From positions 186,001-250,000 of the forward strand of contig NZ_QNUM01000005.1 of assembly GCF_003574655.1 (NCBI RefSeq): a stretch of 64,000 nucleotides of DNA, read 5' to 3'. The notes below the pieces were generated by a model that ran no database searches, was not told where the DNA came from, and saw only the letters and a list, made by a program, of their open reading frames with translations. How positions within the stretch are numbered: the stretch's first letter is position 1; the number at the start of each line of letters is the position of its first letter. The translations under genes were made by a program, and so were the position numbers. Below are positions 1 to 14,921 of the stretch, piece after piece. This stretch comes from Cohaesibacter haloalkalitolerans (GTDB lineage Bacteria; Pseudomonadota; Alphaproteobacteria; Rhizobiales; Cohaesibacteraceae).

Positions 1-711
1 GCACAGGAGCGTCCTGTTCTGCCTGCACCGCATCAGGTGGCTGCGGAACTGTGGGACAGCACGGTGATGAAGAAGGTCAATTCCAAGCGCTCGCTGATCT
101 TTCACGGCTGGATCACGCTTGAGGCGACCCTGCTGGGCTTCGTGGTCGGCACACTGCTCGGAATCGTGCTGTCTGTCGGTATCATCTATATCCGCGCCAT
201 GGACATGAGCGTCATGCCATGGGCCATTGCTTCCCAGACGATTCCCATTCTGGCAATTGCGCCAATGATCATCGTGGTCTTGAACTCGGTCGGCATCCAG
301 GGGCTGATCCCCAAGGCGATCATCTCTGCCTATCTGAGCTTCTTCCCGGTTCTGGTCGGTATGGTGAAGGGGCTGAGGGCACCCGATCACATGCAGCTGG
401 ATCTGCTCAAAACCTACAACGCCTCCAGAAGCGACGCCTTCTACAAGTTGCGCCTGCCGTCCTCCGTGCCCTATCTCTTCACTTCGATGAAAGTGGGCAT
501 TGCCGCTTCGCTCGTCGGCACCATCGTTGGCGAGTTGCCAACCGGTGCCATTCGCGGGTTGGGTGCCCGGCTGCTGACCGGTTCCTACTATGGCCAGACC
601 ATCCAGATGTGGGCCGCTCTCTTTGCCGCCGCCCTGCTGGCCGCAGGCCTCGTGGCGCTCGTGGGACTTGCCGAAAAATCGGTTCTGAAGAAAATGGGGA
701 TGGTACGATGA
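1..711 (+). CDS. ABC transporter permease, 5' truncated by window edge
   Basis: Inner-membrane permease of an importer of the SsuC/TauC/ThiX type. The frame is open from base 1, so the true start lies before the window and 236 residues are visible. Hydrophobic segments alternate with loops, and the conserved cytoplasmic coupling loop (DLLKTYNASRSDAFYKLRLP) that docks on the ATPase is present. The stop codon overlaps the start of the next permease (ATGA), so the two are translationally coupled and probably form a heterodimeric channel. The ATPase gene is presumably upstream, outside the window. The substrate cannot be read from the sequence; the partner binding protein is of the NMT1/THI5 family, whose members bind pyrimidines, riboflavin or similar heterocycles. 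Confidence 0.85.
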   Translation, partial: AQERPVLPAPHQVAAELWDSTVMKKVNSKRSLIFHGWITLEATLLGFVVGTLLGIVLSVGIIYIRAMDMSVMPWAIASQTIPILAIAPMIIVVLNSVGIQGLIPKAIISAYLSFFPVLVGMVKGLRAPDHMQLDLLKTYNASRSDAFYKLRLPSSVPYLFTSMKVGIAASLVGTIVGELPTGAIRGLGARLLTGSYYGQTIQMWAALFAAALLAAGLVALVGLAEKSVLKKMGMVR

Positions 712-1553
712 CCCTTGTTCTTGCTGCACTTGTCATCTGGATTGTGGCCTCATGGGTCAACGTCAAACTCTCCCGGTCGAAGGCCCACAACACGCTGCTG
801 GTGCGCTTTCTGGTGCCATTCATTTTCGGGGTGACGATCCTTGTCGCCTGGGAGCTGCTGGTGCGCGGGCTGAATATTCCCGGCGTCATCCTGCCGCCGC
901 CGACCGCCATCGCAACGCGGTTTGCCGCGTCCACCGATATCCTCTGGCTCGACTTCCTGCAGACCTTCGCCAAAGGGGCGCTCAGCGGCTACATCATCGG
1001 CTGTGGTGCGGCCTTTCTGACGGCGATCCTCATCGACCGCGTGCCCTTCCTGCAACTGGGCCTGCTGCCGGTTGGCAACTTTGTCGCCGCGCTGCCCATC
1101 GTGGGCATTGCCCCGATCCTCGTGATGTGGTTCGGCTTTGACTGGCAATCCAAGGCCGCCGTTGTCGTGGTGATGGTTTTCTTCCCGATGCTGGTCAACT
1201 GCGTGCAGGGCCTGGCCGACACGGATCACATGCAGCGCGATCTGATGAAGACCTATGCGGCGAGCTATTCCGACACCTTGCTCAAGCTGCGGTTGCCTGC
1301 CGCGATGCCGTTCATTTTCAACGGTCTCAAGATTTCAACCACTTCGGCTCTGATCGGCGCGATCGTTGCCGAGTTCTTCGGCTCTCCCATCGTCGGCATG
1401 GGCTTCCGCATCTCCACTGAGGTCGGCAAGCTTGGGCTCGACATGGTCTGGGCGGAAATCACGGTTGCGGCAATTGCTGGCTCCCTGTTTTACGGGGCGG
1501 TGGCCGCAATCGAAAAAGGGGTGACCTTCTGGCACCCCTCACAAAGGGGCTAG
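708..1553 (+). CDS. ABC transporter permease, second subunit
   Basis: Second inner-membrane permease (281 residues) of the same importer. The ATG at 708 overlaps the upstream stop; a longer reading from 219 would run through the upstream gene in another frame and is not credible. It starts with a membrane anchor, followed by a soluble linker with the typical proline-rich 'ILPPPTAI' motif and the coupling loop DLMKTYAASYSDTLLKLRLP, nearly the same as in its partner. This motif places it in the SsuC/ThiX/RibX-like family. The binding-protein gene follows after 80 bases. Confidence 0.85.
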   Translation: MTLVLAALVIWIVASWVNVKLSRSKAHNTLLVRFLVPFIFGVTILVAWELLVRGLNIPGVILPPPTAIATRFAASTDILWLDFLQTFAKGALSGYIIGCGAAFLTAILIDRVPFLQLGLLPVGNFVAALPIVGIAPILVMWFGFDWQSKAAVVVVMVFFPMLVNCVQGLADTDHMQRDLMKTYAASYSDTLLKLRLPAAMPFIFNGLKISTTSALIGAIVAEFFGSPIVGMGFRISTEVGKLGLDMVWAEITVAAIAGSLFYGAVAAIEKGVTFWHPSQRG

Positions 1554-1633: not shown

Positions 1634-2635
1634 ATGAGAGACACTTTCAAGAAAATTGCGATTGGCGCATGTGCAGCTGCCTCGATCTTTGCAGCCACCG
1701 GAGCCAACGCGGCAGATGACTTTACCCTTCAGCTGAAATGGGTGACGCAGGCCCAGTTCGCCGGCTATTATGTTGCTCTGGAAAAGGGCTATTACGAGGC
1801 AGAGGACCTCAATGTCACCATCAAGCCGGGCGGTCCGGATATTGCCCCGACCCAAATTCTGGCCGGTGGTGGCGCTGATGTGGTTGTCGACTGGATGCCT
1901 TCGGCTCTGGCTGCCCGTGAAAAGGGCCTGCCGCTCGTCAACATTGCCCAGCCTTACAAATCCTCGGGCATGATGCTGACGTGCCTCAAGGAAAGCGGCG
2001 TCAAGTCGCCTGAAGACTTCCCCGGCAAGACCCTTGGTGTCTGGTTCTTTGGCAACGAATATCCGTTCCTGAGCTGGATGAGCATTCTCGGTATTCCGAC
2101 CGAAGGCGGCGACAAGGGCGTGACCGTCCTCAAGCAGGGCTTCAATGTTGATCCGCTGCTTCAGAAACAGGCTGCCTGCATCTCCACCATGACCTACAAC
2201 GAATATTGGCAGGTCATCGACGCCGGTATCTCTGCCGACGATCTGATCACCTTCAAATATGAAGATCAGGGCGTGGCTACGCTGGAAGACGGCCTCTATG
2301 TGCTGGAAGACAAGCTGGCTGACGAGAAAGAAGTCGACAAGCTGGTCCGCTTTGTTCGTGCGTCCATGAAAGGCTGGAAATACGCTGAAGCCAACCCGGA
2401 TGAAGCCGCAGATATCGTGCTTGAATATGACGAAACCGGTGCCCAGACCGAAAAGCACCAGAAGCGCATGATGGCCGAAGTGGCAAAGCTGACCGCCGGT
2501 TCCAATGGCGCTCTGGATACGGCCGACTATGAGCGTACCGTCAAGACGCTGATGAGCGGCGGTTCTGCTCCGGTCATTTCCAAGGAACCGGAAGGCGCAT
2601 GGACCCACAAGATCACTGATCTGGCCCTGAAATAG
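1634..2635 (+). CDS. NMT1/THI5-like ABC transporter substrate-binding protein
   Basis: Periplasmic solute-binding protein of 333 residues. A Sec signal peptide is clear, with probable cleavage after the ANA at residues 24-26. The mature protein opens with 'LQLKWVTQAQFAGYYVALEKGYY', split here as LQLKWVTQAQFAGYY then VALEKGYY, which is characteristic of the NMT1/THI5 fold used for thiamine-pyrimidine (ThiY), riboflavin (RibY) and related ligands. A good ribosome site precedes the ATG (AAGGGAATAGAAG). It lies directly upstream of the F420 genes, so the ligand may be tied to that pathway or to the substrate of the downstream oxidoreductase; this is inference. Specificity cannot be assigned. Confidence 0.88.
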   Translation: MRDTFKKIAIGACAAASIFAATGANAADDFTLQLKWVTQAQFAGYYVALEKGYYEAEDLNVTIKPGGPDIAPTQILAGGGADVVVDWMPSALAAREKGLPLVNIAQPYKSSGMMLTCLKESGVKSPEDFPGKTLGVWFFGNEYPFLSWMSILGIPTEGGDKGVTVLKQGFNVDPLLQKQAACISTMTYNEYWQVIDAGISADDLITFKYEDQGVATLEDGLYVLEDKLADEKEVDKLVRFVRASMKGWKYAEANPDEAADIVLEYDETGAQTEKHQKRMMAEVAKLTAGSNGALDTADYERTVKTLMSGGSAPVISKEPEGAWTHKITDLALK

Positions 2636-2649
2636 GCCCGTCCCATTCT

Positions 2650-2677
2650 CCGCCTCCGGACATTGTGCCGGGGGCGG
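2650..2677 (+). terminator. Stem-loop between binding-protein gene and cofG
   Basis: A 10-bp stem (CCGCCTCCGG / CCGGGGGCGG, one G-U pair) encloses an 8-base loop just after the binding-protein stop. No run of T follows, so it is more likely a processing or attenuating hairpin that lowers read-through from the transporter into the F420 genes than a full terminator. Confidence 0.4.
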
Positions 2678-2878
2678 GGTGACGACCCTGGCCCGCCGGC
2701 CTGTTCGGCGGAGCCAACTCCGAGGCAACCGAACAATTCAAGGAAATGTCTTGCCCCGCGCAAACACCGTTTGGCGCGAACAGGGTTCCTTTGCGCCGAT
2801 TTTCCGTTGGGAATGCCATCAAATGCGCAAACGACAGCCCCGAATGGCAGGTGTTTTCATAACGCTAAAGGCAACAGG

Positions 2879-4090
2879 ATGCTGGTAGAAAGCGAACTCA
2901 ACAGTCGATCCGCCGATGTCATGTCGGATAGCGCTGCACGCTTGCCGTCCGGGGCGCGGGAGCTCAACGATCAGGCCCGCCACCTGCAGAAGGCGGATCT
3001 GGCAGGCCTGATGGCGCGGGCAAGCGTCATCCGCGATGCCCGCTGGGGCCGCACCGTGACTTATTCGCGCAAGGCCTTCGTGCCACTGACCAACATGTGC
3101 CGCGATACCTGCGCCTATTGCACCTTCGTCAAGCACCCCGATCACCCGGATGCCAACATCATGTCGCCCGATCAGGTTCTTGCCACTGCCCGCAAGGGCG
3201 AGGCTAAGGGCTGCAAGGAACTGTTGTTCAGCCTCGGGGAAAAGCCCGAACTGCGCTATGAGCGGGCAAGGGCTGCGCTGGCTTTGCTTGGCTATCAGAG
3301 CATGACGGACTATCTGGCCGACATGTGCGCGCTGGTTCTCGAAGAAACCACCATGCTGCCCCATGTCAACGCGGGCACACTCTGCGACGAGGAACTTGCA
3401 AGGCTCCGCCCCGTTTCCGTTTCCATGGGCATGATGCTCGAAACCGTTTCCCGCCGCCTGACCGGCAAGGGTGAGGCCCACCATGCCTGTCCGGACAAGG
3501 TGCCTTTGCAGCGGTTGCGCACGCTGGAACGGGCAGGGGAGCACAAGGTGCCGTTCACCACCGGCCTGCTGATTGGCATAGGCGAAACGTGGCAAGAGCG
3601 GATCGAGGCCCTCCACGCTATCAATGACAGCCACAAGCGCCACGGTCACATTCAGGAAGTCATCATCCAGAATTTCCAGACCAAGCCCGATATCGCCATG
3701 GCCAATCACCCCGAGCCGAGCCTTGAGGACATGCTGCGCACCATCGCGGCTGCGCGCATCATCCTTGCCCCGGAGATCAGCCTGCAGGCTCCGCCCAATC
3801 TCAGTGCCCGCCATATCGCCTATCTCGATGCTGGCATCAATGACTGGGGTGGGATTTCTCCGGTCACCATCGATTTCATCAACCCCCAGCATGCCTGGCC
3901 GCAGATTGATGCACTAGCCGCAAGCTGTGACAAGGCTGGCTTCTCGCTCAGGGAACGACTGCCCGTCTATCCGGCCTATCTTCGGTCGGGATCCGAATTT
4001 CTGAGCCCCCAGCTGCAGGACCGTGTTGCCCGTATGTCGGCCAGCAACGGCCTTGCCAGCGAACAGCGCCACTTGATGCAAGGAGAATAA
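2879..4090 (+). CDS. cofG: FO synthase subunit CofG (7,8-didemethyl-8-hydroxy-5-deazariboflavin synthase)
   Basis: Radical SAM enzyme (403 residues) that with CofH builds FO, the deazaflavin chromophore of F420, from tyrosine and 5-amino-6-ribitylamino-uracil. The [4Fe-4S]/SAM motif CX3CX2C is at Cys74, Cys78 and Cys81 (MCRDTCAYC). The ATG at 2879 follows AAAGGCAACAGG; a longer reading from a TTG at 2663 would cross the intercistronic hairpin and lacks family similarity. CofG and CofH are separate proteins, as in archaea, cyanobacteria and proteobacteria, rather than fused as in actinobacterial FbiC. cofH follows after 5 bases. Confidence 0.95.
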   Translation: MLVESELNSRSADVMSDSAARLPSGARELNDQARHLQKADLAGLMARASVIRDARWGRTVTYSRKAFVPLTNMCRDTCAYCTFVKHPDHPDANIMSPDQVLATARKGEAKGCKELLFSLGEKPELRYERARAALALLGYQSMTDYLADMCALVLEETTMLPHVNAGTLCDEELARLRPVSVSMGMMLETVSRRLTGKGEAHHACPDKVPLQRLRTLERAGEHKVPFTTGLLIGIGETWQERIEALHAINDSHKRHGHIQEVIIQNFQTKPDIAMANHPEPSLEDMLRTIAAARIILAPEISLQAPPNLSARHIAYLDAGINDWGGISPVTIDFINPQHAWPQIDALAASCDKAGFSLRERLPVYPAYLRSGSEFLSPQLQDRVARMSASNGLASEQRHLMQGE

Positions 4091-4095
4091 TCATC

Positions 4096-5373
4096 ATGTC
4101 CAATGAAACAGAGCCAACATTCGATAATCCCCTTGCTTTTGACGCTCAAAACGCCGCTGTTCCTGTTCGGAGAATTCTCGACAAGGCGCTTGAAGGACGT
4201 GAGATTTCACAAGCGGACGCCGTGCTGTTGTTCAAGGCCGAAGCGTCCGCCGACTTGCAGGCGATCTACTATACCGCCGACCTGCTGCGCCAGCGGGCCA
4301 ACGGGGATCTGGTGACCTTCACTGTCAACCGCAACATCAACTTCACCAATGTCTGCTACATGGGCTGCAAGTTCTGCAACTTCGCCAAGCGGGCCGAAGA
4401 GGAGGATGCTCATTGGCATTCTGTGGGCGAGGTGCTGCGCCGTTGCCACGAGGCATGGGACCGGGGCGCGACCGAGGTTTGCATTCAGGGCGGGCTGCAC
4501 CCCAAGTTGCCCGGTAGTTACTATGAGGAGCTTTGCCGCGCCATCAAGGCGGAGTTGCCCGACATGCACTTGCACGCCTTCTCACCTTTCGAGGTCTGGT
4601 ACGGTGCGTCCAAGACGCGGAAGTCCTACCGCGATTTCCTGCAAGGCCTCAAGGACGCCGGTCTTGGCACGATGCCGGGAACGGCTGCCGAAATCCTCGA
4701 TACCGACATTCGCAAACAACTGACAAAGGACAAGCTCAGCACCGAGAAGTGGGTCGAGATCATCCGCACCGCCCATGAGGTGGGGATCCGGACCACAGCG
4801 ACCATTATGTATGGCCATATCGATGCGCCGGAGCATTGGGCCGCTCACATTGACCTGCTGCGCTCGATCCAGAAGGATACCAGCGGCTTTACCGAATTTG
4901 TGCCGCTGTCCTACCAACATGTCGGCACGGCGCTTTATACGGAAAATCCGGGCAAAGTGCGCAAGGGGCCGAGCATCGATGAAATCGACAAGATGCATGC
5001 CGTCTCTCGCATCATGCTCCATGGGCTGATCGACAATATTCAGGTTTCCTGGACCAAGCTCGGCCCTGACCATGCCATGGCAATGCTCAATCGCGGTGCC
5101 AATGATCTGGGCGGCACGCTGATGGAAGAAAGCATTTCCCGTTCTGCCGGGGCAGATCATGGCCAGGAGATCACGGCCTATGAACTGACGCAGATCGTCC
5201 GCGCTTCTGGCCGCATGCCTGCGCGCCGGTCGAGCGATTATCGTATTCTCGACATCTATGATGACCATGATCCGCAGCCGCTTGCGCCATTGATCGATCG
5301 GGGCGGCAAGGACCCGCTCGACTTTCTCAAGCTGTTCTCGGCCACCTCTGCCAAGTTGGAGGCTGCCGAATGA
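4096..5373 (+). CDS. cofH: FO synthase subunit CofH
   Basis: Radical SAM enzyme (425 residues) that acts with CofG to make FO; CofH attaches the tyrosine-derived radical to the ribityl-uracil. The cluster motif CX3CX2C is at Cys87, Cys91 and Cys94 (VCYMGCKFC), preceded by NRNINFTN, a hallmark of the CofH/MqnE/MqnC group. MqnC or MqnE are ruled out by the adjacent cofG, cofD, cofC and cofE. An AGGAGAA ribosome site precedes the ATG. The stop overlaps the cofD start by 4 bases. Confidence 0.95.
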   Translation: MSNETEPTFDNPLAFDAQNAAVPVRRILDKALEGREISQADAVLLFKAEASADLQAIYYTADLLRQRANGDLVTFTVNRNINFTNVCYMGCKFCNFAKRAEEEDAHWHSVGEVLRRCHEAWDRGATEVCIQGGLHPKLPGSYYEELCRAIKAELPDMHLHAFSPFEVWYGASKTRKSYRDFLQGLKDAGLGTMPGTAAEILDTDIRKQLTKDKLSTEKWVEIIRTAHEVGIRTTATIMYGHIDAPEHWAAHIDLLRSIQKDTSGFTEFVPLSYQHVGTALYTENPGKVRKGPSIDEIDKMHAVSRIMLHGLIDNIQVSWTKLGPDHAMAMLNRGANDLGGTLMEESISRSAGADHGQEITAYELTQIVRASGRMPARRSSDYRILDIYDDHDPQPLAPLIDRGGKDPLDFLKLFSATSAKLEAAE

Positions 5374-6350
5374 GCGAACCACAGAAGCTGAAGGTTACCC
5401 TGCTGGCCGGCGGGGTTGGCGGCGCAAAGATGGCCGAAGGCCTCGCTGCGCTCAAGGATGTGGAGCTGACGATCATCGGCAATATCGCCGATGACGACGA
5501 CTTCCATGGCCTTTGGGTGTCGCCGGACATCGATACCATGACCTACACCCTGTCTGGCCGCATCAACCGTCAGCAGGGCTGGGGGCTGGCCGACGAGGGC
5601 ACCCGTGCGCTCGATATCCTGACGACCCTTGGTCAGGACACATGGATGATGCTCGGGGACAAGGATTTCGGCCTCCACATCTATCGTACCATGCGGCGGA
5701 CGAGAGGTGATCGCCCCACAGACATAGCAGCCGATGTGGCTGAAGCCTTTGGTGTCAAACCGCGCATTCTTTTGCCGACCGATGATCGGGTGCAGACCCG
5801 GGTCAAGACGGAAAAGGGCTGGCTGAGTTTTCAGGAATATTTCGTGCGCGAGAAATGCGCCCCCACCGTCGAGGCGCTTGAGCTCAAGGGCATAGAGGAC
5901 GCCACGGCAACCCCGGAAGCGCTTGCGGCCATCGCCAACGCCGACCTGCTCGTCATCGCCCCGTCCAATCCATTGGTCAGCATCGAGCCGATCCTTGCCG
6001 TCAAGGGCATCCGTGATGCGGTGAAAGAGGCTCGCGTGCCAAGGATCGCTGTCAGCCCGCTGATTGCTGGCAAGGTCGTCAAGGGCCCCGCCGACAGGAT
6101 GATGACGGCGCTAGGCATGCGCGCCGATGTCGTTGGCGTGGCCGCGCACTATGCCGGCTTGATCGATGCCCTGCTGATCGATCATCAAGACGGCGCGCTC
6201 GCCGAGGAGATCACCGGTCTGTCGATCCAGCCCCATTACGAAGATATCCTGATGAAGGACGCAGAAGACAAGGCGCGGCTCGCCCGTGCGGTTGTCGATC
6301 TTGGTGTGATGCTTGCGGCAGACAAAGGCCAAAACGGAGCTGCCGCATGA
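5370..6350 (+). CDS. cofD: 2-phospho-L-lactate transferase CofD
   Basis: Transfers the phospholactyl (or, in many bacteria, phosphoenolpyruvyl or phosphoglyceryl) group from the guanylylated donor to FO, giving F420-0 or dehydro-F420-0. The 326-residue protein begins with the glycine-rich GGVGGAKMAEGL nucleotide loop and contains the NIADDDDFHGL and DIDTMTYTL motifs typical of CofD. It overlaps cofH upstream and cofC downstream (ATGA each), so the genes are strictly co-translated. Which three-carbon donor is used cannot be told from sequence alone. Confidence 0.95.
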   Translation: MSEPQKLKVTLLAGGVGGAKMAEGLAALKDVELTIIGNIADDDDFHGLWVSPDIDTMTYTLSGRINRQQGWGLADEGTRALDILTTLGQDTWMMLGDKDFGLHIYRTMRRTRGDRPTDIAADVAEAFGVKPRILLPTDDRVQTRVKTEKGWLSFQEYFVREKCAPTVEALELKGIEDATATPEALAAIANADLLVIAPSNPLVSIEPILAVKGIRDAVKEARVPRIAVSPLIAGKVVKGPADRMMTALGMRADVVGVAAHYAGLIDALLIDHQDGALAEEITGLSIQPHYEDILMKDAEDKARLARAVVDLGVMLAADKGQNGAAA

Positions 6351-7009
6351 CTGAAAAGCTGCTGATCCTCATCCCGATGAAAGACCCGTCCCGGGCGAAA
6401 TCGCGGCTGGCATCCGGTCTTTCGGAAGGCGAACGGTCGACCCTCTCGCTGATGCTGTTCAAGGCTGTGGTCGAACGGATCAAAACCGCTCTTGCGAGTG
6501 CTGATCATTTGAAGGCCCAGATCGATGTGATTGATATCGCGGTGGTATCTTCCAGTGAGGTCATCCGGCAGGTGGCCGAAGAGCTGGACATCCTCTTTCT
6601 GCCGGAAGCTGGAGACACCGGCCTCAATGATGCCTTGCAGGCCGCCTCTGAATGCGCCCTCAAGCAGGGCTACGGACGGCTCTGCATCCTGCCTGGAGAT
6701 CTGGCCGATCCAACGGCGCAGGATATCGTCAGCCTGTTGTCCTATCCGGTCGACGTGCGGACAATCATTGTCTGCCCGTCAGAGGATCTGGGCACCAACG
6801 CCCTTGTCGTGCCTCTACCGAGCCCGATGCCATTTTCCTTCGGTCCGGACTCTTTTTCGCGGCATTTCAGTCAGGCCGCCGATCTTGGTTTGATGCCGGT
6901 CATTCTGCCGCTCAAGAGCCTGCGTCGCGATATCGATACGATGGCGGACCTGAGCTATCTCGATGCAGCCCAGACGGCCGTGATCGCCAATGGCGGGGAG
7001 GGTGCGTGA
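6347..7009 (+). CDS. cofC: 2-phospho-L-lactate guanylyltransferase CofC
   Basis: Small nucleotidyltransferase (220 residues) that activates the three-carbon phosphoacid with GTP for CofD. The N-terminus has the family signature IPMKDPSRAKSRL followed by LPGDLADPT, a metal/nucleotide-binding loop of the MobA-like fold. In proteobacteria the preferred acid may be phosphoenolpyruvate, 2-phospholactate or 3-phosphoglycerate. The stop shares a base with the cofE start (TGATG). Confidence 0.93.
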   Translation: MTEKLLILIPMKDPSRAKSRLASGLSEGERSTLSLMLFKAVVERIKTALASADHLKAQIDVIDIAVVSSSEVIRQVAEELDILFLPEAGDTGLNDALQAASECALKQGYGRLCILPGDLADPTAQDIVSLLSYPVDVRTIIVCPSEDLGTNALVVPLPSPMPFSFGPDSFSRHFSQAADLGLMPVILPLKSLRRDIDTMADLSYLDAAQTAVIANGGEGA

Positions 7010-7779
7010 TGGCCAGCCTGATGATCACGGCCATTCCCGGCGTTCCCGATATTGTGGCGGACGATGACCTTGCCGCCATTCTCGGCGATTGTCTGGTAGC
7101 GAGCGGCAATACGCCTATCGAGGGCGATATCCTCTGCGTGGCTCAGAAGGTCTTCTCCAAGGCTGAGGGCTGCATCTACCCTCTTGCCAGCATCACGCCG
7201 TCAGCAGAGGCGCTGCGCTATGCCGAAGAGCTGGGCAAGGACGCGCGCAAGGTCGAGATCGTGCTGCGAGAAAGTACCGAGGTTGTGCGAGCCTTCCGCC
7301 ATCCCGGCCAGAATGAGGGGACAATGATTTGCCGCCACCGGCTTGGGTTCATCTCGGCCAATGCTGCGGTTGATGAATCCAACATCGCGGAAACCGACGC
7401 CGCCATGACATTGCCACCGGACCCTGACGCCAGCGTTCGCGCCATGCGTAAGGCGCTCGAAGCGCGGTTCGGCTGCCGTATCGGCGTGGTGATGACAGAC
7501 ACCTTCGGCAGGCCCTGGCGTATTGCTCAGGTCAATGTGGCGATCGGACTTGCCGGGGTGCCAGCCACCATCCGCGAGCAAGGCAATCAGGACGCCTGGG
7601 GCCGCATCATGAAGGTGACCGAAGCCGCCTTCGCCGATGAACTGGCCGCCGCATCCGGACTGGTGGTCAAGAAGGCCGCCAAAACACCCCTCGTGCTGTT
7701 TCGCGGGCTCGACTGGTGCCCTACCGAAAGTCGGGCAGGAGATCTGTTGAGAGGAAAACAAGAGGACATGTTCAAATGA
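7009..7779 (+). CDS. cofE: Coenzyme F420:L-glutamate ligase CofE
   Basis: Adds gamma-linked L-glutamate residues to F420-0 in a GTP-dependent reaction, giving polyglutamylated F420. The 256-residue protein has the CofE hallmarks AVDESNI and DTFGRPWR. It is the stand-alone form, without the C-terminal FMN-binding nitroreductase-like domain fused in actinobacterial FbiB, so reduction of dehydro-F420, if needed, must be done elsewhere. The ATG at 7009 is set by overlap with cofC; longer readings run antiparallel to coding logic in the cofC region. It overlaps npdG by 4 bases. Confidence 0.94.
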
Positions 7780-8444
7780 CGATCGCAATCATTGGCGGTA
7801 CAGGACCGCAAGGACAGGGGCTGGCGCTGAGATTTGCCCGTGCCGGTGTGCCGGTCGCCCTCGGCTCGCGGGATGCAGCGCGCGCCGCCGAAATCGGGGT
7901 GGCGTTGCGGCAGCAGTTGGCGGACGACTGCGCCCCGATCACCGGCGTTGCCAACGAAGAGGCTGTGCGGATGGCTGACGAAATCGTCATTCTCGCGGTG
8001 CCGTTCTCTGGCCACAACGCAACACTCAGCGCGCTTAAACCACATCTTGAGGGCAAGATCCTCGTCGATATCGTCGTACCCCTGAAGGAGGGTGACCCCA
8101 AGAAGGTGGAAATGCCACCGGAGGGCTCGGCAACGGAAGCCGCGCAGGCGCTGCTCGGGCCGGACATCCCCGTTGTCGGTGCGCTGCACAATGTCTCTGC
8201 AACGACATTGAAGACCCTCGAATGGGATATCAACTGTGACATTCTGGTCTGTGGCAACTCGCTGGCAGCCCGCAAGACCGTCATGGATCTCATCGGGAAA
8301 CTCGGGGTCACGGCCTATAACGCTGGCGACGCCGAAGCGGCTCGCTGCATCGAGGCCATCACCCCCATTCTCATTCGCATCAACATATCCAAACAGGTGC
8401 CGTTCACCCACGCCGGGTTGAAGATCTGGGCGCCGGATCACTGA
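7776..8444 (+). CDS. npdG: F420-dependent NADP oxidoreductase (Fno/NpdG)
   Basis: Moves hydride between NADPH and F420, here probably forming F420H2 for the next gene product. The 222-residue protein has the dinucleotide motif [11 protein letters not shown] at its N-terminus, followed by GSRDAARA (the phosphate-binding loop for NADP) and LAVPF, all typical of Fno/NpdG (TIGR01915-type). It overlaps cofE by 4 bases, so it is in the same operon. The presence of this recycling enzyme argues that F420 is used as an NADPH-coupled redox carrier in this organism. Confidence 0.92.
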
Positions 8445-8515
8445 TCCAAGTGACCGACAAACGATCACCACCTGAACAACCGAGAAGACTTGAAGAACAA
8501 GGACAGGAGAGAGAG

Positions 8516-9520
8516 ATGGAATTCGCTATTTGCTTTAAGGGCTTTGTTGAGCCCAAACGCGCCCGCGCCCTTGTGCGACAGGCTGAAAATGCCGGCTTCA
8601 CCTATTGCTGGTTCTATGACAGCCACATTCTTTGGCGGGAAAGCTACATGGCCATGGCCATGTGCATGGAACACACCACTAAAATGCGCTTTGGCCCTTG
8701 CGTGACCAACCCGAACACCCGCGACTGGTCGCTGGCAGCCTCGATGTTCGGCTCGCTGGCCAAGCAGTCCGAAGGGCGCTTTGACATCGGCCTTGGCCGT
8801 GGCGACAGCGCGGTGCGGGTTATGGGCCTCAAGCCGGCGCCGCTGAGACGTCTGGAGGAATTCACTCATGTGGTTAAGGCACTGGTGCGTGGCGACGAGG
8901 CCCAATATGGCGAATGCCCCGAGCCGGTGAAATTTCCGTGGGCCGAGGGCTATGAGCTGCCGGTCTGGGTCGCTGCCTATGGCCCCAAGGCGCTTAGCTC
9001 TGCGGGGCGTGTCGGCGATGGCCTCATCCTGCAGATTGCCGAGCCGAGCATCGTCAAATGGCTCGCCAGTACCGCCATCGAAGAGGGCAAGAAGGCGGGT
9101 CGTGACATGTCCAACTACAAGGTTATGTCGGCTGCGCCTGCCTATTTTGGCTCCAAGGAAGAATGCATCGCCGCAACGCGCTGGTTCCCGGCCATGGTGG
9201 GCAACCACGTTGCTGACATCGTTGAAAAATACGGCACCGAGCGGGACGATATTCCGCCAGCGCTGACCGCCTATATCAAGGATCGCAAGGGCTACGACTA
9301 TTCCAAGCACGGCCAGAGCGACAACCCGTATCTTGATTTCATTACCGATGAAATCATTGAGGGTTTCAGCGTTCTTGGCCCGGCAGAGCAGCAGGTTGCC
9401 AAACTCAACGTCCTCAAGGACGCCGGTGTCACCCAGTTCAACATTTATCTGGACAACGGCAAGGAAGAACAGATCATCGCCGAATATGGCGAAAAGATCA
9501 TTCCGGCATTCACAGCCTGA
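8516..9520 (+). CDS. LLM-class F420-dependent oxidoreductase (CPS_4043-like)
   Basis: Luciferase-like TIM-barrel enzyme of 334 residues, the probable user of F420H2 made by the preceding genes. It resembles methylene-tetrahydromethanopterin reductase-type LLM proteins: ARALVRQAENAGF, a central RFDIGLGRGDSAVR motif for the deazaflavin, and YGPKALSSAGRVGDGLIL. I associate it with the TIGR03842 (CPS_4043) subfamily from memory. The ATG at 8516 follows GGACAGGAGAGAG; a longer reading from 8450 is unlikely. The substrate is unknown. Its position between the F420 genes and a terminator suggests it is the reason the module is kept. Confidence 0.85.
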   Translation: MEFAICFKGFVEPKRARALVRQAENAGFTYCWFYDSHILWRESYMAMAMCMEHTTKMRFGPCVTNPNTRDWSLAASMFGSLAKQSEGRFDIGLGRGDSAVRVMGLKPAPLRRLEEFTHVVKALVRGDEAQYGECPEPVKFPWAEGYELPVWVAAYGPKALSSAGRVGDGLILQIAEPSIVKWLASTAIEEGKKAGRDMSNYKVMSAAPAYFGSKEECIAATRWFPAMVGNHVADIVEKYGTERDDIPPALTAYIKDRKGYDYSKHGQSDNPYLDFITDEIIEGFSVLGPAEQQVAKLNVLKDAGVTQFNIYLDNGKEEQIIAEYGEKIIPAFTA

Positions 9521-9569
9521 GACCAATCATCAACGCGGACTGGTTCGGTAAGAGCTGGTTAAACTTGAT

Positions 9570-9602
9570 GGGGCGGATCCTTGCGATCCTGCCCCGTTTT
9601 TT
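9570..9602 (+). terminator. Rho-independent terminator of the F420 operon
   Basis: Stem GGGGCGGATC paired with GATCCTGCCCC (one bulge, one G-U) around the loop CTTGC, followed directly by GTTTTTTG. It lies 50 bases after the oxidoreductase stop and separates the F420 operon from the convergent thiolase gene. Confidence 0.85.
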
Positions 9603-9630
9603 GCCTGCTGGGAAGAAGCGAGACCGGGCG

Positions 9631-10815
9631 TTATTCAGGGAAAATTTCGAACAGCCCGGCTGCGCCTTGACCGCCGCCGATGCACATGCTGACGACGCCA
9701 TATTTTGCGCCACGTCTGCGCCCTTCGATGAGGATGTGCCCGGCCATCCTTGCTCCCGACATGCCGTAGGGGTGGCCGATGGAAATGGCCCCACCGTTCA
9801 CGTTAAGCTTGTCATTGTCGATGCCGAGCGCATCGCGGCAATAGAGCAGCTGTGCTGCGAAAGCCTCATTGATTTCCCAAAGATCGATATCGTCAACCTT
9901 GAGACCATTGCGGGCGAGCAGTTTGGGGATGGCCCGTACCGGACCGATTCCCATTTCCTCTGCGGCGCATCCGGCAACGGCGAAGCCGCGCATGGTGCCA
10001 AGCGGGCGAAGGCCGCGGCGGTTGGCCTCGTTCGCATCCATCAGAACGCAGGCCGAGGCCCCATCCGACAGTTGGCTGGCGTTGCCTGCGGTAACGCATT
10101 TGTCCGGTCCGAGCACCGGTTTGAGACGCGCCAGCCCCTCGGCTGTCGTTTGCGGCCTATTGCACTCGTCATGGCTGAGGGTGACCGTTTCCTCGCAGTT
10201 GGCTCCCGCTTCCTTGTCCCAGACCAGCTTCTGAGTCGTCACGGGAATGATCTCGGCATCGAAGCGACCGGCCTGCTGTGCCGCAGCCGTGCGCTGCTGG
10301 CTTTGCAGGGCATAAGCGTCCTGAGCGTCACGGCTGATGCCATAGTGTTCGGCGACCCGTTCGGCGGTTTCGATCATTGACATGTAGTAGCTGTCTCGCA
10401 CATTCGGATCGCGGTAACGATACTGGTTCCAGTATTGCTCCAGCTGCACCAGCGAAATGCTGTCAAGGCCGCCGCCGATAGCTACATCAACCCCTTCATT
10501 GGCAATCATGTGCGAGGCAATGGCAATGGCATTGAGTCCGGAGGCGCACTGCCGATCGATGGTCGACCCGGCAACCGTGTCCGGCAACCCGGAGGCCAGC
10601 ACGATGTGGCGTCCAACGTTGATGCCGGTGGAGCCCTGCGTCAAGGCCGAGCCGAAGGTGACCTCCTCGACGGCGTCCCCCTCCAGCGAAGCCCGTTCCA
10701 TTGCGGCGCGCACGGCATGGGCAGCAAGACTGGGGCCTTCGAGATTGTTAAAGGCGCCACGATAGGCCTTGCCGATGGGGGTGCGGGCAGTTGAAACGAT
10801 GACGGCCTTGCGCAT
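9631..10815 (-). CDS. Thiolase (acetyl-CoA C-acyltransferase)
   Basis: Thiolytic enzyme (394 residues) that splits a 3-oxoacyl-CoA into acetyl-CoA and a shortened acyl-CoA. The nucleophilic Cys90 sits in [10 protein letters not shown], the catalytic His in [19 protein letters not shown] and the C-terminal Cys in MCIGGGQG. The ATG at 10815 follows a GAGGAGGAGAAAG ribosome site; a longer reading to 10896 is not needed. It is the last gene of the minus-strand catabolic operon, 105 bases after the deacylase. Together with the CoA-transferase genes this implies that the pathway passes through a 3-oxo acid. Chain length cannot be deduced. Confidence 0.92.
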
Positions 10816-10920
10816 TTCTTTCTCCTCCTCGGTCGCTCGTCCTGCTTCAGCCTGTCGCACCCTGTTGTGCGGCAAGCGATGCTGCGTTCGAGCCATCCTG
10901 CAAGCGCGGATGCGGATCCC

Positions 10921-12213
10921 CTAAACGGGTTCCAGTCCGCACCAGTTTGCGATGAACAGGGCCGTGGCCTTAGTGACCCGATTGACGCTTTCCAGCGATA
11001 CCCGTTCGTTGAAGCCGTGAATGGCTTCGGCATGTGGTCCGTAGACAAGAGCCGGTGTATTGGCATAGAGGCCAAAGAAACGGGTGTCCGTCGTGCAGGT
11101 GATGGCCATCTGTTCCAGTTCCCTGTCGTTGACCACCCTGTGGGCGTCGCCCAGAGTCTTGATGGCGCTCAGCGCAGGTTCGCTCCTGTCGTCAGACAAG
11201 GCATACCCCTCAGCCATGAATCCGTGGTAAACAACCTTGGGTTTATTGGCCTTCAGGAAGCTGTTTTCCTCGGCGGCTTGCATAAGTGTGGCCTCGATGT
11301 CGGCGCGTGCCGCTGCCATGTCCTGACCGGGGAAGACCCCCATGCGCACGTCGAACACGCACCACGCCGGAACCGAGCTTGGCCAGTCGCCGCCGACGAT
11401 CTTACCGACATTGAGATTGAGCGCGTGCTCATGGTGGGCAAAGGCGTGGTGACGGTTCTCGGATGCGTTCCAGCGCTTCTCAAGACCGTGCAGGGCGTTG
11501 ATCAGCGGTACGGCGGCCTCAATGGCATTGGCCCCGTCACCTGCATAGGCCACATGAGTGGGCAGGCCCTGAAGATGCACCTGAAACCAGATCACGCCGG
11601 TCTGGGCCTTCACCAGCGTTTCATCGAACGGTTCGGGAATGAGCACGGCGTCCGCCTTGTAGCCGCGCTCAAGGCAGGCAAGGGCACCGTTGCCCGTGCA
11701 TTCTTCCTCGACAACCGACTGAAAGAACAGATCCGCCGCCGGGGCAAATCCGGCAGAGCGCAGGGCATCAAGCGCAAACAGGTTGGCTACCAGCCCGGCC
11801 TTCATGTCGCCAGCCCCCCGGCCATAGAGCCAGTCACCATCGACCTTGGGCGAGAAGGGCGGGGTCTCCCACATTTCCAGTGGTCCGGCGGGCACGACAT
11901 CGATGTGGCCATTGAGGATCAGCGAACGGCCCTTGTTCGAACGGCTCCTGTGTGTGCCGACCACATTGACCGCATCGGCATAGGAGCCGATGACCGGCGA
12001 AAAGCCCGGAAGATGGCGAATGGCGTCGACGTCGATCTGCCAGCGATCAACCGCATAACCACGCTCGGCAAGTGCGTCCGCCATGTGGGTCTGCGCAGAC
12101 TGTTCCTGCCCCCGTGTCGAGGGATGGCTGACGAGGTCTGCCAGAAAGGCGGTCTGCTGATCGGAATTGTCGTCTACAGCAGCAAGAATCCGGCGCTCAA
12201 TGCTCTTGTCCAT
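10921..12213 (-). CDS. M20-family deacylase (ArgE/DapE type)
   Basis: Zinc-dependent amidohydrolase of 430 residues that probably removes an N-acyl group from an amino acid. The M20 active site is intact: NGHIDVVP with His103 and Asp105, RGAGDMKAG with the bridging Asp136, and VVEEE (167-171) with the catalytic and ligand glutamates. The ATG at 12213 has GGAGAGAG upstream; the TTG at 12228 would overlap that site. N-carbamoyl amidases (HyuC/PydC) are also M20, but the motifs here look like ArgE/DapE. It lies between CoA-transferase B and thiolase, implying an acylated amino acid as pathway substrate. Confidence 0.85.
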   Translation of the reverse strand: MDKSIERRILAAVDDNSDQQTAFLADLVSHPSTRGQEQSAQTHMADALAERGYAVDRWQIDVDAIRHLPGFSPVIGSYADAVNVVGTHRSRSNKGRSLILNGHIDVVPAGPLEMWETPPFSPKVDGDWLYGRGAGDMKAGLVANLFALDALRSAGFAPAADLFFQSVVEEECTGNGALACLERGYKADAVLIPEPFDETLVKAQTGVIWFQVHLQGLPTHVAYAGDGANAIEAAVPLINALHGLEKRWNASENRHHAFAHHEHALNLNVGKIVGGDWPSSVPAWCVFDVRMGVFPGQDMAAARADIEATLMQAAEENSFLKANKPKVVYHGFMAEGYALSDDRSEPALSAIKTLGDAHRVVNDRELEQMAITCTTDTRFFGLYANTPALVYGPHAEAIHGFNERVSLESVNRVTKATALFIANWCGLEPV

Positions 12214-12242
12214 GATTGCTCTCTCCAAATAGTCCTGCTCGC

Positions 12243-12902
12243 TCAGAAGGTCGGGATATCACCATCCGGGATCATCAACGGTGCGCCGGTCGCGGATTTG
12301 ACCTCGGCAACGGATATCCCTTCGGCCAACTCGCGCAGGACAAAGCCTTGGGGTGTCACATCGACCACCGCCATGTCGGTGAAAATGCGCTCCACCGACC
12401 CTATTGCTGTCAGCGGCAGCGTGCAGCGCTCAAGCAGTTTGGGATTGCCTTTGCGGTCGGTGTGGGTCGTCAGCACCATCACATGGGCGGCCTTCTGCGC
12501 AAGCTCGATGCCGCCGCCGACGCCGGGGGAGAATTTGCCCGGAATCTTCCAGTTGGCGAGATCGCCATTCTGCGCCACCTCGAAGGCACCAAGCATCGTC
12601 AGATCCAGCCGTCCAGACCGGACGATGGCAAAGGACATGGCGCTGTCGATGAAGGCACCGCCGGGCAGGGCGCTGATATAGGCCCCGCCAGCGTCGATAA
12701 GATCGCAATCGGCGTGATCATAGTCCATGGTTGGGCCAACGCCGACGAGACCGTTTTCCGTATGAAGGCCAACCTCCATGCCGGTCGGCAGGAAATTGAC
12801 CACCCGGGTCGGAAGGCCGATCCCGAGATTGACCAGCATGCCCGGCTCGATGGCGCGGGCGGCGCGGGCGACCATTCTGTCTCTAGCGTCGGACAATGGC
12901 AT
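12243..12902 (-). CDS. 3-oxoacid CoA-transferase, subunit B
   Basis: Beta subunit (219 residues) of a class I CoA-transferase. The catalytic glutamate that forms the enzyme-CoA thioester is Glu49 in LHTENGLVG. The start at 12902 overlaps the A subunit by 20 bases, with the GTGCAAGG region of the A gene acting as leader; the longer reading to 13013 is only the A gene in another frame. Family members include AtoA, PcaJ and ScoB. The neighbouring thiolase suggests activation of a 3-oxo acid with succinyl-CoA or acetyl-CoA as CoA donor. Confidence 0.9.
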   Translation of the reverse strand: MPLSDARDRMVARAARAIEPGMLVNLGIGLPTRVVNFLPTGMEVGLHTENGLVGVGPTMDYDHADCDLIDAGGAYISALPGGAFIDSAMSFAIVRSGRLDLTMLGAFEVAQNGDLANWKIPGKFSPGVGGGIELAQKAAHVMVLTTHTDRKGNPKLLERCTLPLTAIGSVERIFTDMAVVDVTPQGFVLRELAEGISVAEVKSATGAPLMIPDGDIPTF

Positions 12903-13575
12903 ATTCCTTGTGCAACTGATCGAGGGCAACCACATGGTCGACAAACGGTCCGGGCGTGTGAATGGAGTCTGGATCAATATCGCCGATCGGCAGGCAATTG
13001 CGGCTCTGGACAATGACGCAATCGGCAGCCATTGCCATCAACGGGTTGAAATTGCGCGCAGTCTTGGCAAAGCAGAGGTTGCCAAACCCGTCGCACCGCT
13101 CCGCATGAATAAGCGCGGCATCGGTGCGCAGGGCGGTTTCCAGCACATAGTCACTGCCATCAACCGTAACCATCTGCTTGCCCTCGGCCAACTCGGTGCC
13201 GATGCCGATGTCCGAGATAAACCCGGCAAGACCGGCGCCCCCGGCTCTAATCCGTTCGGCCAGAATACCCTGAGCGCAGAATTCCACCTCGATGACACCC
13301 CGGTTCATCAGCTCGATGGCGTGGGCATTGAGGCCGAGATGGGTGACGATGAGCTTGCGCACCTGACCATTGGCGAGCAGATGGTCGATGCCCATGCCCG
13401 CCTCGTTGGCGTCATTCTTGATGATGGTCAGGTTCTTCTGGCCCTGCCGCACCAGTTCGGCAATCAGGTTGAACGGGGTTCCGGGCACCCCGAACCCGCC
13501 CACCATGATCGAGGCTCCGTCGCCGATATGGGCGACGGCTTCCTCGATGGTTCGGTTTTTCTGCGGCAGTCTCAT
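12883..13575 (-). CDS. 3-oxoacid CoA-transferase, subunit A
   Basis: Alpha subunit (230 residues) of the same CoA-transferase. The GGFGVPGTPFNLI motif near residue 27 is the family's CoA-binding signature, and the remaining sequence follows the AtoD/ScoA/PcaI pattern. It overlaps the upstream aminotransferase by 4 bases (ATGA) and the downstream B subunit by 20, so the three are produced together. The direct transaminase-to-CoA-transferase coupling suggests that the keto acid made by the aminotransferase is the CoA acceptor. Confidence 0.9.
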   Translation of the reverse strand: MRLPQKNRTIEEAVAHIGDGASIMVGGFGVPGTPFNLIAELVRQGQKNLTIIKNDANEAGMGIDHLLANGQVRKLIVTHLGLNAHAIELMNRGVIEVEFCAQGILAERIRAGGAGLAGFISDIGIGTELAEGKQMVTVDGSDYVLETALRTDAALIHAERCDGFGNLCFAKTARNFNPLMAMAADCVIVQSRNCLPIGDIDPDSIHTPGPFVDHVVALDQLHKEYAIVRR

Positions 13576-14921
13576 GAGGCATTCACGGGCAGATTGTATT
13601 TTGCCGCGAGGGCATCAAGGCTGTCGATGAGGATCGCCATGATTTCGTCGATCTGCGATTCCGTGACGATCATGGCCGGTGCCACGAGGAAATGATCGCC
13701 CTCGATGCCACCGCGTGTCCGCCGGGAATAGATAATCAGACCGCGCTCATAGGCCATTTCCACCAGTTCGAGATAGCAGTTGTACTCCTTGGGCAACGGC
13801 TTCATGGTTTCCTTGTCGCTGACAAGCTCGAAGGCCAGCAGCAGACCCTTGCCGCGGACATCGCCGATGAAGGGATAGCGCTCCATCAGCCCTTCCAGTC
13901 GTGCCTTGAGGAGATCGCCCATGGCGGCACAATTGCCGATGAGGTCGAGCCGGTCGATTTCCTTGAGAACGGCCACCCCGGCAGCGCAGGCAAGAGGGTT
14001 GCCGGCATAGGTGTAGCCATGCAGGAAGCCGCCGGCGTCCAGCAACGCTTCGACCATGGTTTCGCGGGCAACCACGGCCCCGAGCGGCGCATAGCCGGCG
14101 GCAAAGCCTTTGGACATCGCCACGATGTCCGGTTCGATATCCCAGTGATTGGCCGCAAGGAAGGAGCCGGTTCGCCCGACGCCGGTCATCACCTCGTCAT
14201 AGATGAGGAGAATGCCGAATTCCTTGCAGATCTCCGCAATGCGCCCGTAATAGCTGTCTGGGGCGACGAGCGCACCGGTGGAGGCGCCACCAATCGGTTC
14301 CATGATGAAGGCGAGGACGGTTTCCGGGCCTTGCTTGAGGATCTCGTCACGCAGCAGCTCGGCATATTTGAGGCCGCGCTGTTCGTCGGTAAGGTTGTCT
14401 CGGTCGAGGTAGCAGGCGGGAGCGGCGATCTTGGGCATATCGCGCATCATCGGGTCAAACGGCCGGGCGAGCGGATCATAGCCGGTGAGGGCCAGTGCCC
14501 CGAATGTGCTGCCGTGATAGGACGGAAAGCGAGAAATCACCTTCCAGCGGCTGGCTTGTCCTTGCGTGATCGCATATTGCCGCGCCAGTTTGATGGCGCT
14601 TTCCACAGCTTCGGAGCCACCGGAGACAAAGAACACCCGGTCAAGATTGCCCGGCATCCGCTCGGCCACCATCGTCGCAAGATCCTCGGAGGGCTCTGTG
14701 CGGAAATGCAGGCGATAGCCGAAGGTGGATTTGTCCATCTGGGCCTTCATGGCCGCCAGCACATTGGGGTTGGAATGACCAATGTTGGAAACCATCGCAC
14801 CGGAAGAGCCGTCGATATAGCGCTTGCCGGACTGGTCGTACATATAGATCCCTTCCGCGCGATCCAGAAACGGACGGGGGGCACGGGACTGATAGAAGAG
14901 GTGAGACGCTTCTTTTCTCAT
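13572..14921 (-). CDS. Class III (omega/beta) aminotransferase
   Basis: PLP-dependent aminotransferase of 449 residues in fold type I, class III. The PLP lysine is Lys271 in [14 protein letters not shown], preceded by [13 protein letters not shown] with the cofactor-binding aspartate. This class transfers amino groups away from the alpha position (beta-alanine, 4-aminobutyrate, diamines, beta-amino acids). It overlaps both the transporter ATPase gene and CoA-transferase A by 4 bases. Substrate identity is not determined by sequence; a beta-amino acid fits best with the downstream enzymes. Annotation as a generic 'aspartate aminotransferase family protein' would also be defensible. Confidence 0.9.

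Follow-up and report, generated by a model that had tools for sequence, protein, structure and literature searches.

A candidate F420H2-dependent dihydropyrimidine dehydrogenase in a pyrimidine-degradation gene block of Cohaesibacter haloalkalitolerans

The genome of Cohaesibacter haloalkalitolerans (5.01 Mb in 24 contigs) carries genes for making, reducing and using the cofactor F420 in a 64,000-nucleotide stretch that we call the window (G000:C20:186001-250000). The run ends in a gene for a luciferase-like monooxygenase (LLM)-class protein of family TIGR03842 ('F420_CPS_4043'; database kind hypoth_equivalog), a family that is not known to have an assigned function. Very probably, this protein is an F420H2-dependent dihydropyrimidine dehydrogenase, in which electrons pass from NADPH through NpdG to F420H2 and on to uracil or thymine. 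We propose, from sequence comparisons, that it works like dihydropyrimidine dehydrogenase yet lies outside the PreA/PydA family. The initial annotation had treated the F420 genes as a self-contained module and the LLM reaction as undescribed. Instead, the module supplies the opening step of a larger block for pyrimidine degradation, and a reaction can therefore be proposed: uracil or thymine to the dihydropyrimidine. We found no paper stating a pyrimidine role for an F420-dependent LLM enzyme in the literature searched (subscription papers lay outside its scope).

Gene content of the block and the proposed pathway

Genes were assigned with curated NCBIfam cut-offs and Pfam gathering thresholds. 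The F420 gene calls of the initial annotation all hold, each on the plus strand and above its curated NCBIfam cut-off: cofG (2879..4090; TIGR03550, 463.7 bits, cut-off 213.35), cofH (4096..5373; TIGR03551, 481.8 bits, cut-off 374.1), cofD (5370..6350; TIGR01819, 285.6 bits, cut-off 257.45), cofC (6347..7009; TIGR03552, 124.5 bits, cut-off 105), cofE (7009..7779; TIGR01916, 218.6 bits, cut-off 180.65), npdG for NADPH-dependent F420 reductase (7776..8444; TIGR01915, 189.1 bits, cut-off 149.8) and the LLM gene (8516..9520; TIGR03842, 494.6 bits, cut-off 295.45). Gene content bears out a single block in which F420 is made, reduced in an NADPH-type step and consumed by an LLM enzyme. The start/stop overlaps ascribed to the whole run are found at the cofH/D, D/C, C/E and E/npdG junctions, whereas 5 nt separate the cofG stop from the cofH start. 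The cofG start is probably 2879 rather than 2663. The LLM start is probably 8516, 71 nt past the end of npdG, because the methionine there is invariant in alignments of 49 and 51 rows (cut at the match); npdG and the LLM gene therefore do not overlap.

Upstream of cofG lies an importer on the same strand, consisting of ABC permease 1 (1..711; PF00528, 75.5 bits; the gene starts upstream of the window), ABC permease 2 (708..1553; PF00528, 83.4 bits for the translation scored from 858) and a substrate-binding protein (SBP) that is, as first annotated, of the NMT1/THI5 type (1634..2635; PF09084 (NMT1), 136 bits, gathering threshold 20.5). The initial annotation pointed further upstream for an ATPase and hydantoinase/dihydropyrimidinase genes, and both are present in the overlapping stretch L002 (C20:174001-188000; L002 position = window position + 12000). 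Directly 5' of the permeases is the ABC ATPase gene (L002 11055-11855, plus), preceded on the plus strand by genes for dihydropyrimidinase (L002 about 9494-10948; TIGR02033, 605.1 bits, cut-off 393.25), a hydantoinase/carbamoylase-family amidase taken as ureidopropionase (L002 8006-9247; TIGR01879, 383.7 bits, cut-off 204) and CoA-acylating methylmalonate-semialdehyde dehydrogenase (MMSDH; L002 about 6383-7879; TIGR01722, 693.7 bits, cut-off 448.5). A RutR-like TetR gene (L002 5412-6038, minus) diverges from the MMSDH gene. The block is thus collinear from MMSDH through ureidopropionase, dihydropyrimidinase and importer to cofGHDCE-npdG-LLM, and begins upstream of the window. Its nearest named relative is in Cohaesibacter marisflavi (LLM 96%, RutR homologue 96.6%).

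The dihydropyrimidinase has its best PDB match, over its length, in 3dc8 (938.7 bits). The amidase matches the N-carbamoyl-beta-alanine amidohydrolase 8c46 at 743.4 bits, with two better matches to N-carbamoyl-L-amino-acid hydrolase (777.8 and 770 bits). The canonical Pyd steps of dihydropyrimidinase and beta-ureidopropionase are thus represented, the latter by family membership, and none of the genes in the block was assigned as an aminotransferase. Taken with its F420 genes, the block looks like a Pyd pathway without the usual reductase. The SBP and cofG are 243 bp apart, so that a single transcript for importer and cof genes is not shown; a promoter/terminator scan of this gap returned none on the plus strand, and its RNA fold is unexceptional (z -1.51, with 15 of 200 shuffles equally good). 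Beyond the LLM gene, the minus strand at 9631-14921 has what looks like a separate catabolic cluster, with genes for a thiolase, an ArgE/DapE-type deacylase, a CoA-transferase pair and a class III aminotransferase; we excluded it from the block since no link between the two is shown.

In the pathway we envisage for this species, a RutR-type repressor sensing uracil or thymine would control the block, and these pyrimidines would enter through the NMT1-type ABC importer, or through an NCS1 symporter in other genera. CofG, CofH, CofD, CofC and CofE, whose genes are present, would make F420. NpdG, going by its family function, would move a hydride from NADPH to F420, and the LLM enzyme, in the step that is new, would move it from F420H2 to the pyrimidine C5=C6 bond, giving dihydrouracil or dihydrothymine and replacing the iron-sulfur flavoenzyme PreTA/PydA. 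By their family functions, dihydropyrimidinase would then open the ring, beta-ureidopropionase would yield beta-alanine or 3-aminoisobutyrate, and an omega-aminotransferase (seen in the loci of other genera) together with the CoA-acylating MMSDH would finish the pathway. The likeness to the Pyd pathway with PreTA/PydA thus lies in the proposed first reaction and in the downstream dihydropyrimidinase, beta-ureidopropionase and MMSDH. The first Pyd enzyme, however, is a PyrD-like FMN/Fe-S protein, whereas here it would be a luciferase-fold F420 protein; and unlike in the PreTA/PydA pathway, electrons would pass from NADPH to F420, and the block itself includes the genes for making the cofactor. 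A variant of pyrimidine reduction that depends on ferredoxin is known (PMC7332683).

Family, fold and probable cofactor of the LLM enzyme

PF00296 is the sole Pfam match of the LLM protein. In a PDB sequence search the top eight of ten matches were F420 enzymes, the nearest being Mer (8qq8, 101.4 bits); the ninth was an alkanal monooxygenase at 30.3 bits. An AlphaFold2 model (mean pLDDT 90.3, pTM 0.90) retrieved F420 enzymes in all 16 top rows of Foldseek. The 15 top rows of a VIA fold search were likewise F420 enzymes (Z 28.9-36.8), with the first FMN enzyme at Z 27.6 and RutA at 25.8. Mer was again the best match (Z 36.8, 318 aligned residues, root-mean-square deviation 2.4), followed by F420 alcohol dehydrogenase, FGD1, FGD2 and relatives. 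These comparisons show that the nearest relatives of the LLM protein bind F420 and that its predicted model has the F420-type fold. Binding of FMN instead of F420, which the initial annotation named as an outcome that would overturn its view, is not indicated by either search.

Given this likeness (nearest solved relatives, F420, a TIM barrel), the LLM enzyme could be read as a Mer-like F420-dependent methylene-tetrahydrofolate reductase unconnected with pyrimidines. We consider this very unlikely, although Mer is nearest both by sequence and by fold. Identity to Mer is about 24-28%, and the protein scores below the Mer cut-offs (120.2 versus 348.7 bits for TIGR03555, 124.3 versus 276 for NF002619). 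Residue 6, which is mutated (E6Q) in Mer entry 8qq8 according to its title, is C, T, A or V rather than Glu in eight relatives. The genome already has a MetF over cut-off, and a Mer-like role would leave the Pyd-type neighbours and RutR boxes described below unexplained. A Mer/MetF role was rejected on the grounds of the Mer cut-offs and the presence of MetF.

The FMN oxygenase RutA opens the uracil ring by an oxidative route. The Rut pathway of Escherichia coli resembles the present system in its RutR-type regulator and operator and in having an LLM-fold enzyme that acts on uracil. The importer and F420 module might be adjacent by chance and the LLM protein be an FMN oxygenase like RutA. We give this hardly any weight: F420 enzymes head the PDB lists, and the RutA model TIGR03612 (cut-off 498.3) has no match to the LLM protein at E 0.001, where 21 families are listed. 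Moreover, among 54 LLM-positive genomes (49 from the loci below and five from a class sample), CofD occurs in 48 and RutA exceeds its cut-off in a single genome; of the six without CofD, one had its locus examined, and there a predicted F420-0 importer lies by the LLM gene. A RutA-like role was rejected for the missing model match and this near absence of rutA. Genome G300 has three RutA-like proteins over cut-off, and G215 has one below it.

In the Cohaesibacter genome no PreA (NF006183) exceeds the cut-off, the best score being 134.2 versus 335 bits for a PyrD1B-type protein, and RutA is unmatched at E 1e-100. The only other PF00296 protein belongs to TIGR03571; TIGR03842 is therefore the sole apparent LLM-type F420 user (FDOR families were not searched), and F420 in this genome apparently serves one LLM-type enzyme. 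Elsewhere in the genome (L134, G000:C24:84001-103000), genes for a phosphorylase-superfamily protein, an NMT1-type SBP, PyrD1B-like and PyrK-like proteins and a carbamoylase-family amidase form a second cluster, which could be an orotate or other pyrimidine route.

Genomic neighbourhoods, regulation and phylogenetic profile

To place the enzyme in context we compared a non-random set of named loci, the best 80 of 588 confirmed when ranked by similarity to an alignment of eight relatives. Neighbouring open reading frames, in flanks of up to 10 kb, were classed by BLAST against reference proteins; because gene calls are of this kind, 'intergenic' below is approximate. Neighbours among the 80 loci include ureidopropionase (34), dihydropyrimidinase (24), NCS1 (19), RutR (36), aminotransferase (10), MMSDH (10) and PntAB (10). 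At least two of dihydropyrimidinase, ureidopropionase, NCS1 and RutR occur in 35/80 loci. When aminotransferase and MMSDH are added to make six kinds of Pyd-type gene, at least one is in reach in 51/80 loci, and in 36 of the 55 that span at least 19 kb. Dihydropyrimidinase also adjoins the LLM gene in Chloroflexota (L121/L122) and Streptomyces (L040).

Gene order varies among Leisingera, Paracoccus, Pseudovibrio, Halomonas, Marinomonas, Vibrio, Colwellia, Trinickia, alphaproteobacterial AG- records and Chloroflexota, which suggests that the link between LLM and Pyd genes was kept or remade repeatedly. On the annotated Leisingera caerulea plasmid (L042), for instance, NCS1-hydA-Zn hydrolase-aminotransferase-pntBA is divergent to cofGHDCE-npdG-LLM-TetR; the aminotransferase matches the AptA model (748.4 bits versus 500), and the transhydrogenase would supply NADPH for NpdG. 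Locus L103 combines thymidine phosphorylase, NCS1, dihydropyrimidinase, LLM and aminotransferase genes. In Paracoccus alcaliphilus (L038) the operon adjoins an ABC importer, and no dihydropyrimidinase was found within 20 kb. On a tree of 51 rows (4 unlabelled), Pyd linkage requires 9 changes, where shuffling gave 14.6 on average, and 0/500 shuffles were that low. Linkage is thus clustered, yet it recurs on most of the main branches; close relatives do not count as independent cases.

Some copies deserve separate mention. The record behind L051 is named Nocardioides marinus, and its F420/LLM locus is Leisingera-like (TetR 92% and Lrp 91% to Leisingera); the assembly is therefore probably mislabelled or contaminated. 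On Caballeronia plasmid pSBC2-6 (L041 10001-10384), next to genes for a Zn hydrolase, ald and a transhydrogenase, the match is confined to the C-terminal part of LLM (query residues 227-354); this is probably a decayed copy. Genome G164 has several TIGR03842-like genes on contigs C100, C239 and C305 (L011), two of them over cut-off and some beside partial copies.

RutR boxes were sought with the consensus of the E. coli RutR operator. Allowing up to 2 mismatches, the 80 loci gave 61 intergenic and 16 coding matches, the intergenic ones in 38/80 loci, whereas 300 permuted palindromes averaged 0.67 intergenic matches and reached at most 6 loci. Of the 45 loci with cofG, 22 have a box near its start, and in 14/80 loci a box lies no more than 150 bp upstream of the LLM start. 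Boxes also occur in 18 of the 29 loci that lack a Pyd-type gene in reach. According to PMC10891134, the operator is a palindrome of about 16 bp and the uracil contacts of RutR are W77, Y97, W167, Q171 and Q179. Among 40 RutR homologues (our own, two of plasmid loci and 37 found in the 80 loci), W77, W167, Q171 and Q179 are present in all and Y97 in 39, with one Y97F; the RutR-like protein of the present block has the complete set (WYWQQ).

The phylogenetic profile compares 49 LLM-positive genomes, drawn from 50 of the 80 loci less L085, with 289 genomes of one class; its p-values ignore relatedness. Dihydropyrimidinase exceeds its cut-off in 48/49 LLM-positive genomes versus 91/284 LLM-negative class genomes, and CofD is present in 43/49. 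In Paracoccus denitrificans DSM 413 (G295, locus L053) no PreA exceeds the cut-off. Five class genomes have LLM over cut-off; all five have CofD, none has PreA and four have dihydropyrimidinase (class totals: CofD 46/289, PreA 54/289, dihydropyrimidinase 95/289). At the family cut-off, dihydropyrimidinase-positive class genomes divide into 51 with PreA, 4 with LLM, 0 with both and 40 with neither (Fisher p 0.043). A stricter cut of at least 580 bits, set post hoc, leaves 52 genomes: 47 with PreA, 3 with LLM, 0 with both and 2 with neither (p 0.0005).

The LLM enzyme might also reduce some other unsaturated cyclic ureide, such as a modified or 5-substituted pyrimidine or a hydantoin-like or purine-derived compound, with PreA taking uracil where both occur. 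Dihydropyrimidinases often act on hydantoins. Where PreA is kept, 10 of 11 LLM-positive genomes have at least two dihydropyrimidinases, compared with 8 of the 38 without PreA (p 5e-5). In addition, PMC12507026 proposes an F420-dependent LLM 'yanthine reductase' of Chloroflexota as the substitute for a YgfK/PydA-type reductase acting on a pyrimidine-like ring; that system sits in uric-acid clusters of anaerobes, whereas ours are pyrimidine clusters that also include importer, RutR and F420-synthesis genes. Against a different ureide, 37 of the 38 genomes without PreA do have dihydropyrimidinase, the uracil contacts are kept in the RutR homologues, and uracil and thymine are indicated by nearby genes for MMSDH, the omega-aminotransferase AptA and thymidine phosphorylase. 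We thus regard such a substrate as rather improbable.

Several results weigh against a dihydropyrimidine dehydrogenase role. PreA is present in 11/49 LLM-positive genomes, and our own genome has the second pyrimidine-like cluster with its PyrD/PyrK-type proteins. The profile sets genomes of several proteobacterial classes against a sample of one. Dihydropyrimidinase is below cut-off in two LLM-positive genomes (G303 in the named set, G215 in the class sample), and since PreA and LLM are both lacking in 40/95 class genomes with dihydropyrimidinase, that family extends beyond pyrimidine work. The stricter cut of 580 bits was set after the data were seen. Neither a Pyd-type gene nor a box was found in 11/80 loci; some of these are short stretches, and in L043 the dihydropyrimidinase lies at the edge of the stretch. 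Our RutR homologue scores below the curated RutR cut-offs (194.2 versus 368; 167.9 versus 230), and no canonical RutR box was found in the four upstream stretches of our block (best 4 mismatches) or upstream in Paracoccus denitrificans L053 (4), Leisingera L042 (4) and L056 (5). Finally, 41/46 CofD-positive class genomes have no TIGR03842 over cut-off; F420 therefore has other roles in most of the class, and a pyrimidine role would not cover F420 in all proteobacteria.

Having weighed these points, we retain the dihydropyrimidine dehydrogenase reading and lean, with less assurance, towards a wider one: that in TIGR03842-positive Proteobacteria F420 is a catabolic cofactor inducible by the RutR uracil/thymine signal, is made or, in Devosia-type lineages, scavenged as F420-0, and mainly drives this new enzyme class, with PreTA replaced many times by transfer of the module. 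If so, TIGR03842 would gain a function, and F420 would acquire a defined task in some proteobacteria whose reason for having it had been unclear. Induction by uracil or thymine would account for trace amounts of F420 in uninduced cells. F420H2 would join NAD(P)H and ferredoxin as an electron source for pyrimidine reduction, and enzymes of the LLM step could also inactivate 5-fluorouracil. The pathway would be testable by growth of a culturable strain.

Lesser features of the regulatory regions are as follows. Before MMSDH, our block has two TGACCGATCGTGC direct repeats, the same in Cohaesibacter. The best RutR-box match in Pseudovibrio L047/L048 has 3 mismatches. Weak operator matches (up to 3 mismatches) occur in L002 at 78, 489, 5543, 8372 and 11254, all within genes; 0.60 are expected by chance, and 0/200 shuffles reach five. 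The window has 9 matches, from 29740 onward, outside the block.

Importer and cofactor supply

The initial annotation allowed the importer to carry either the oxidoreductase substrate or a deazaflavin precursor. The first option fits. The nearest solved structure to the SBP is the FAMP-binding 3ix1 (ThiY-type, 75.7 bits). Relatives of the SBP (72-77% identical) and of permease 1 (65-71%) lie beside dihydropyrimidinase, ureidopropionase and LLM genes in L056, L059-L061 and L063-L065, where ureidopropionase, dihydropyrimidinase, ATPase, permeases and SBP directly follow LLM (two of these seven loci were read gene by gene). In other loci an NCS1 nucleobase symporter occupies the importer's place. 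Judged by these relatives, the importer probably carries nucleobases, the simplest reading of its ligand, and would be a pyrimidine nucleobase importer. Predicted F420-0 importers belong to TIGR03868/TIGR03869 (Pfam PF01497/PF01032), whereas the window SBP matches PF09084 and not PF01497. That this SBP brings in FO or some other deazaflavin precursor is unsupported, and we rejected the idea in view of the NCS1 exchange and the different family of F420-0 importers.

The same seven loci are alphaproteobacterial AG- records, probably single-cell genomes to judge by their names. Within the flank cofG, cofH and cofC were not seen; a single run holds cofD, cofE, npdG and LLM together with ureidopropionase, dihydropyrimidinase and an importer of the same type.

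A different supply of cofactor is suggested by Devosia and Pelagibacterium, in whose LLM-positive genomes CofD was not found at E 1e-40 (6/6 searched). In L105 (5310-11002), the one CofD-less Devosia-type locus examined by family models, the LLM gene is preceded by an operon for FGD (TIGR03554, 495.7 bits versus 420), CofE (222.9 versus 180.65), a putative F420-0 binding protein (TIGR03868, 440.2 versus 392.4), a permease (TIGR03869, 449.1 versus 437.35) and an ATPase. A perfect RutR palindrome stands before the operon, and another with 2 mismatches before the LLM gene. From these family assignments, Devosia-type genomes, in which CofG, CofH and CofC were not searched, likely salvage F420-0 for pyrimidine use, which suggests that some bacteria would import a cofactor precursor to eat nucleobases. 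CofE-like and ABC ATPase matches also lie near the LLM gene in L106, L109-L113 and L115-L119.

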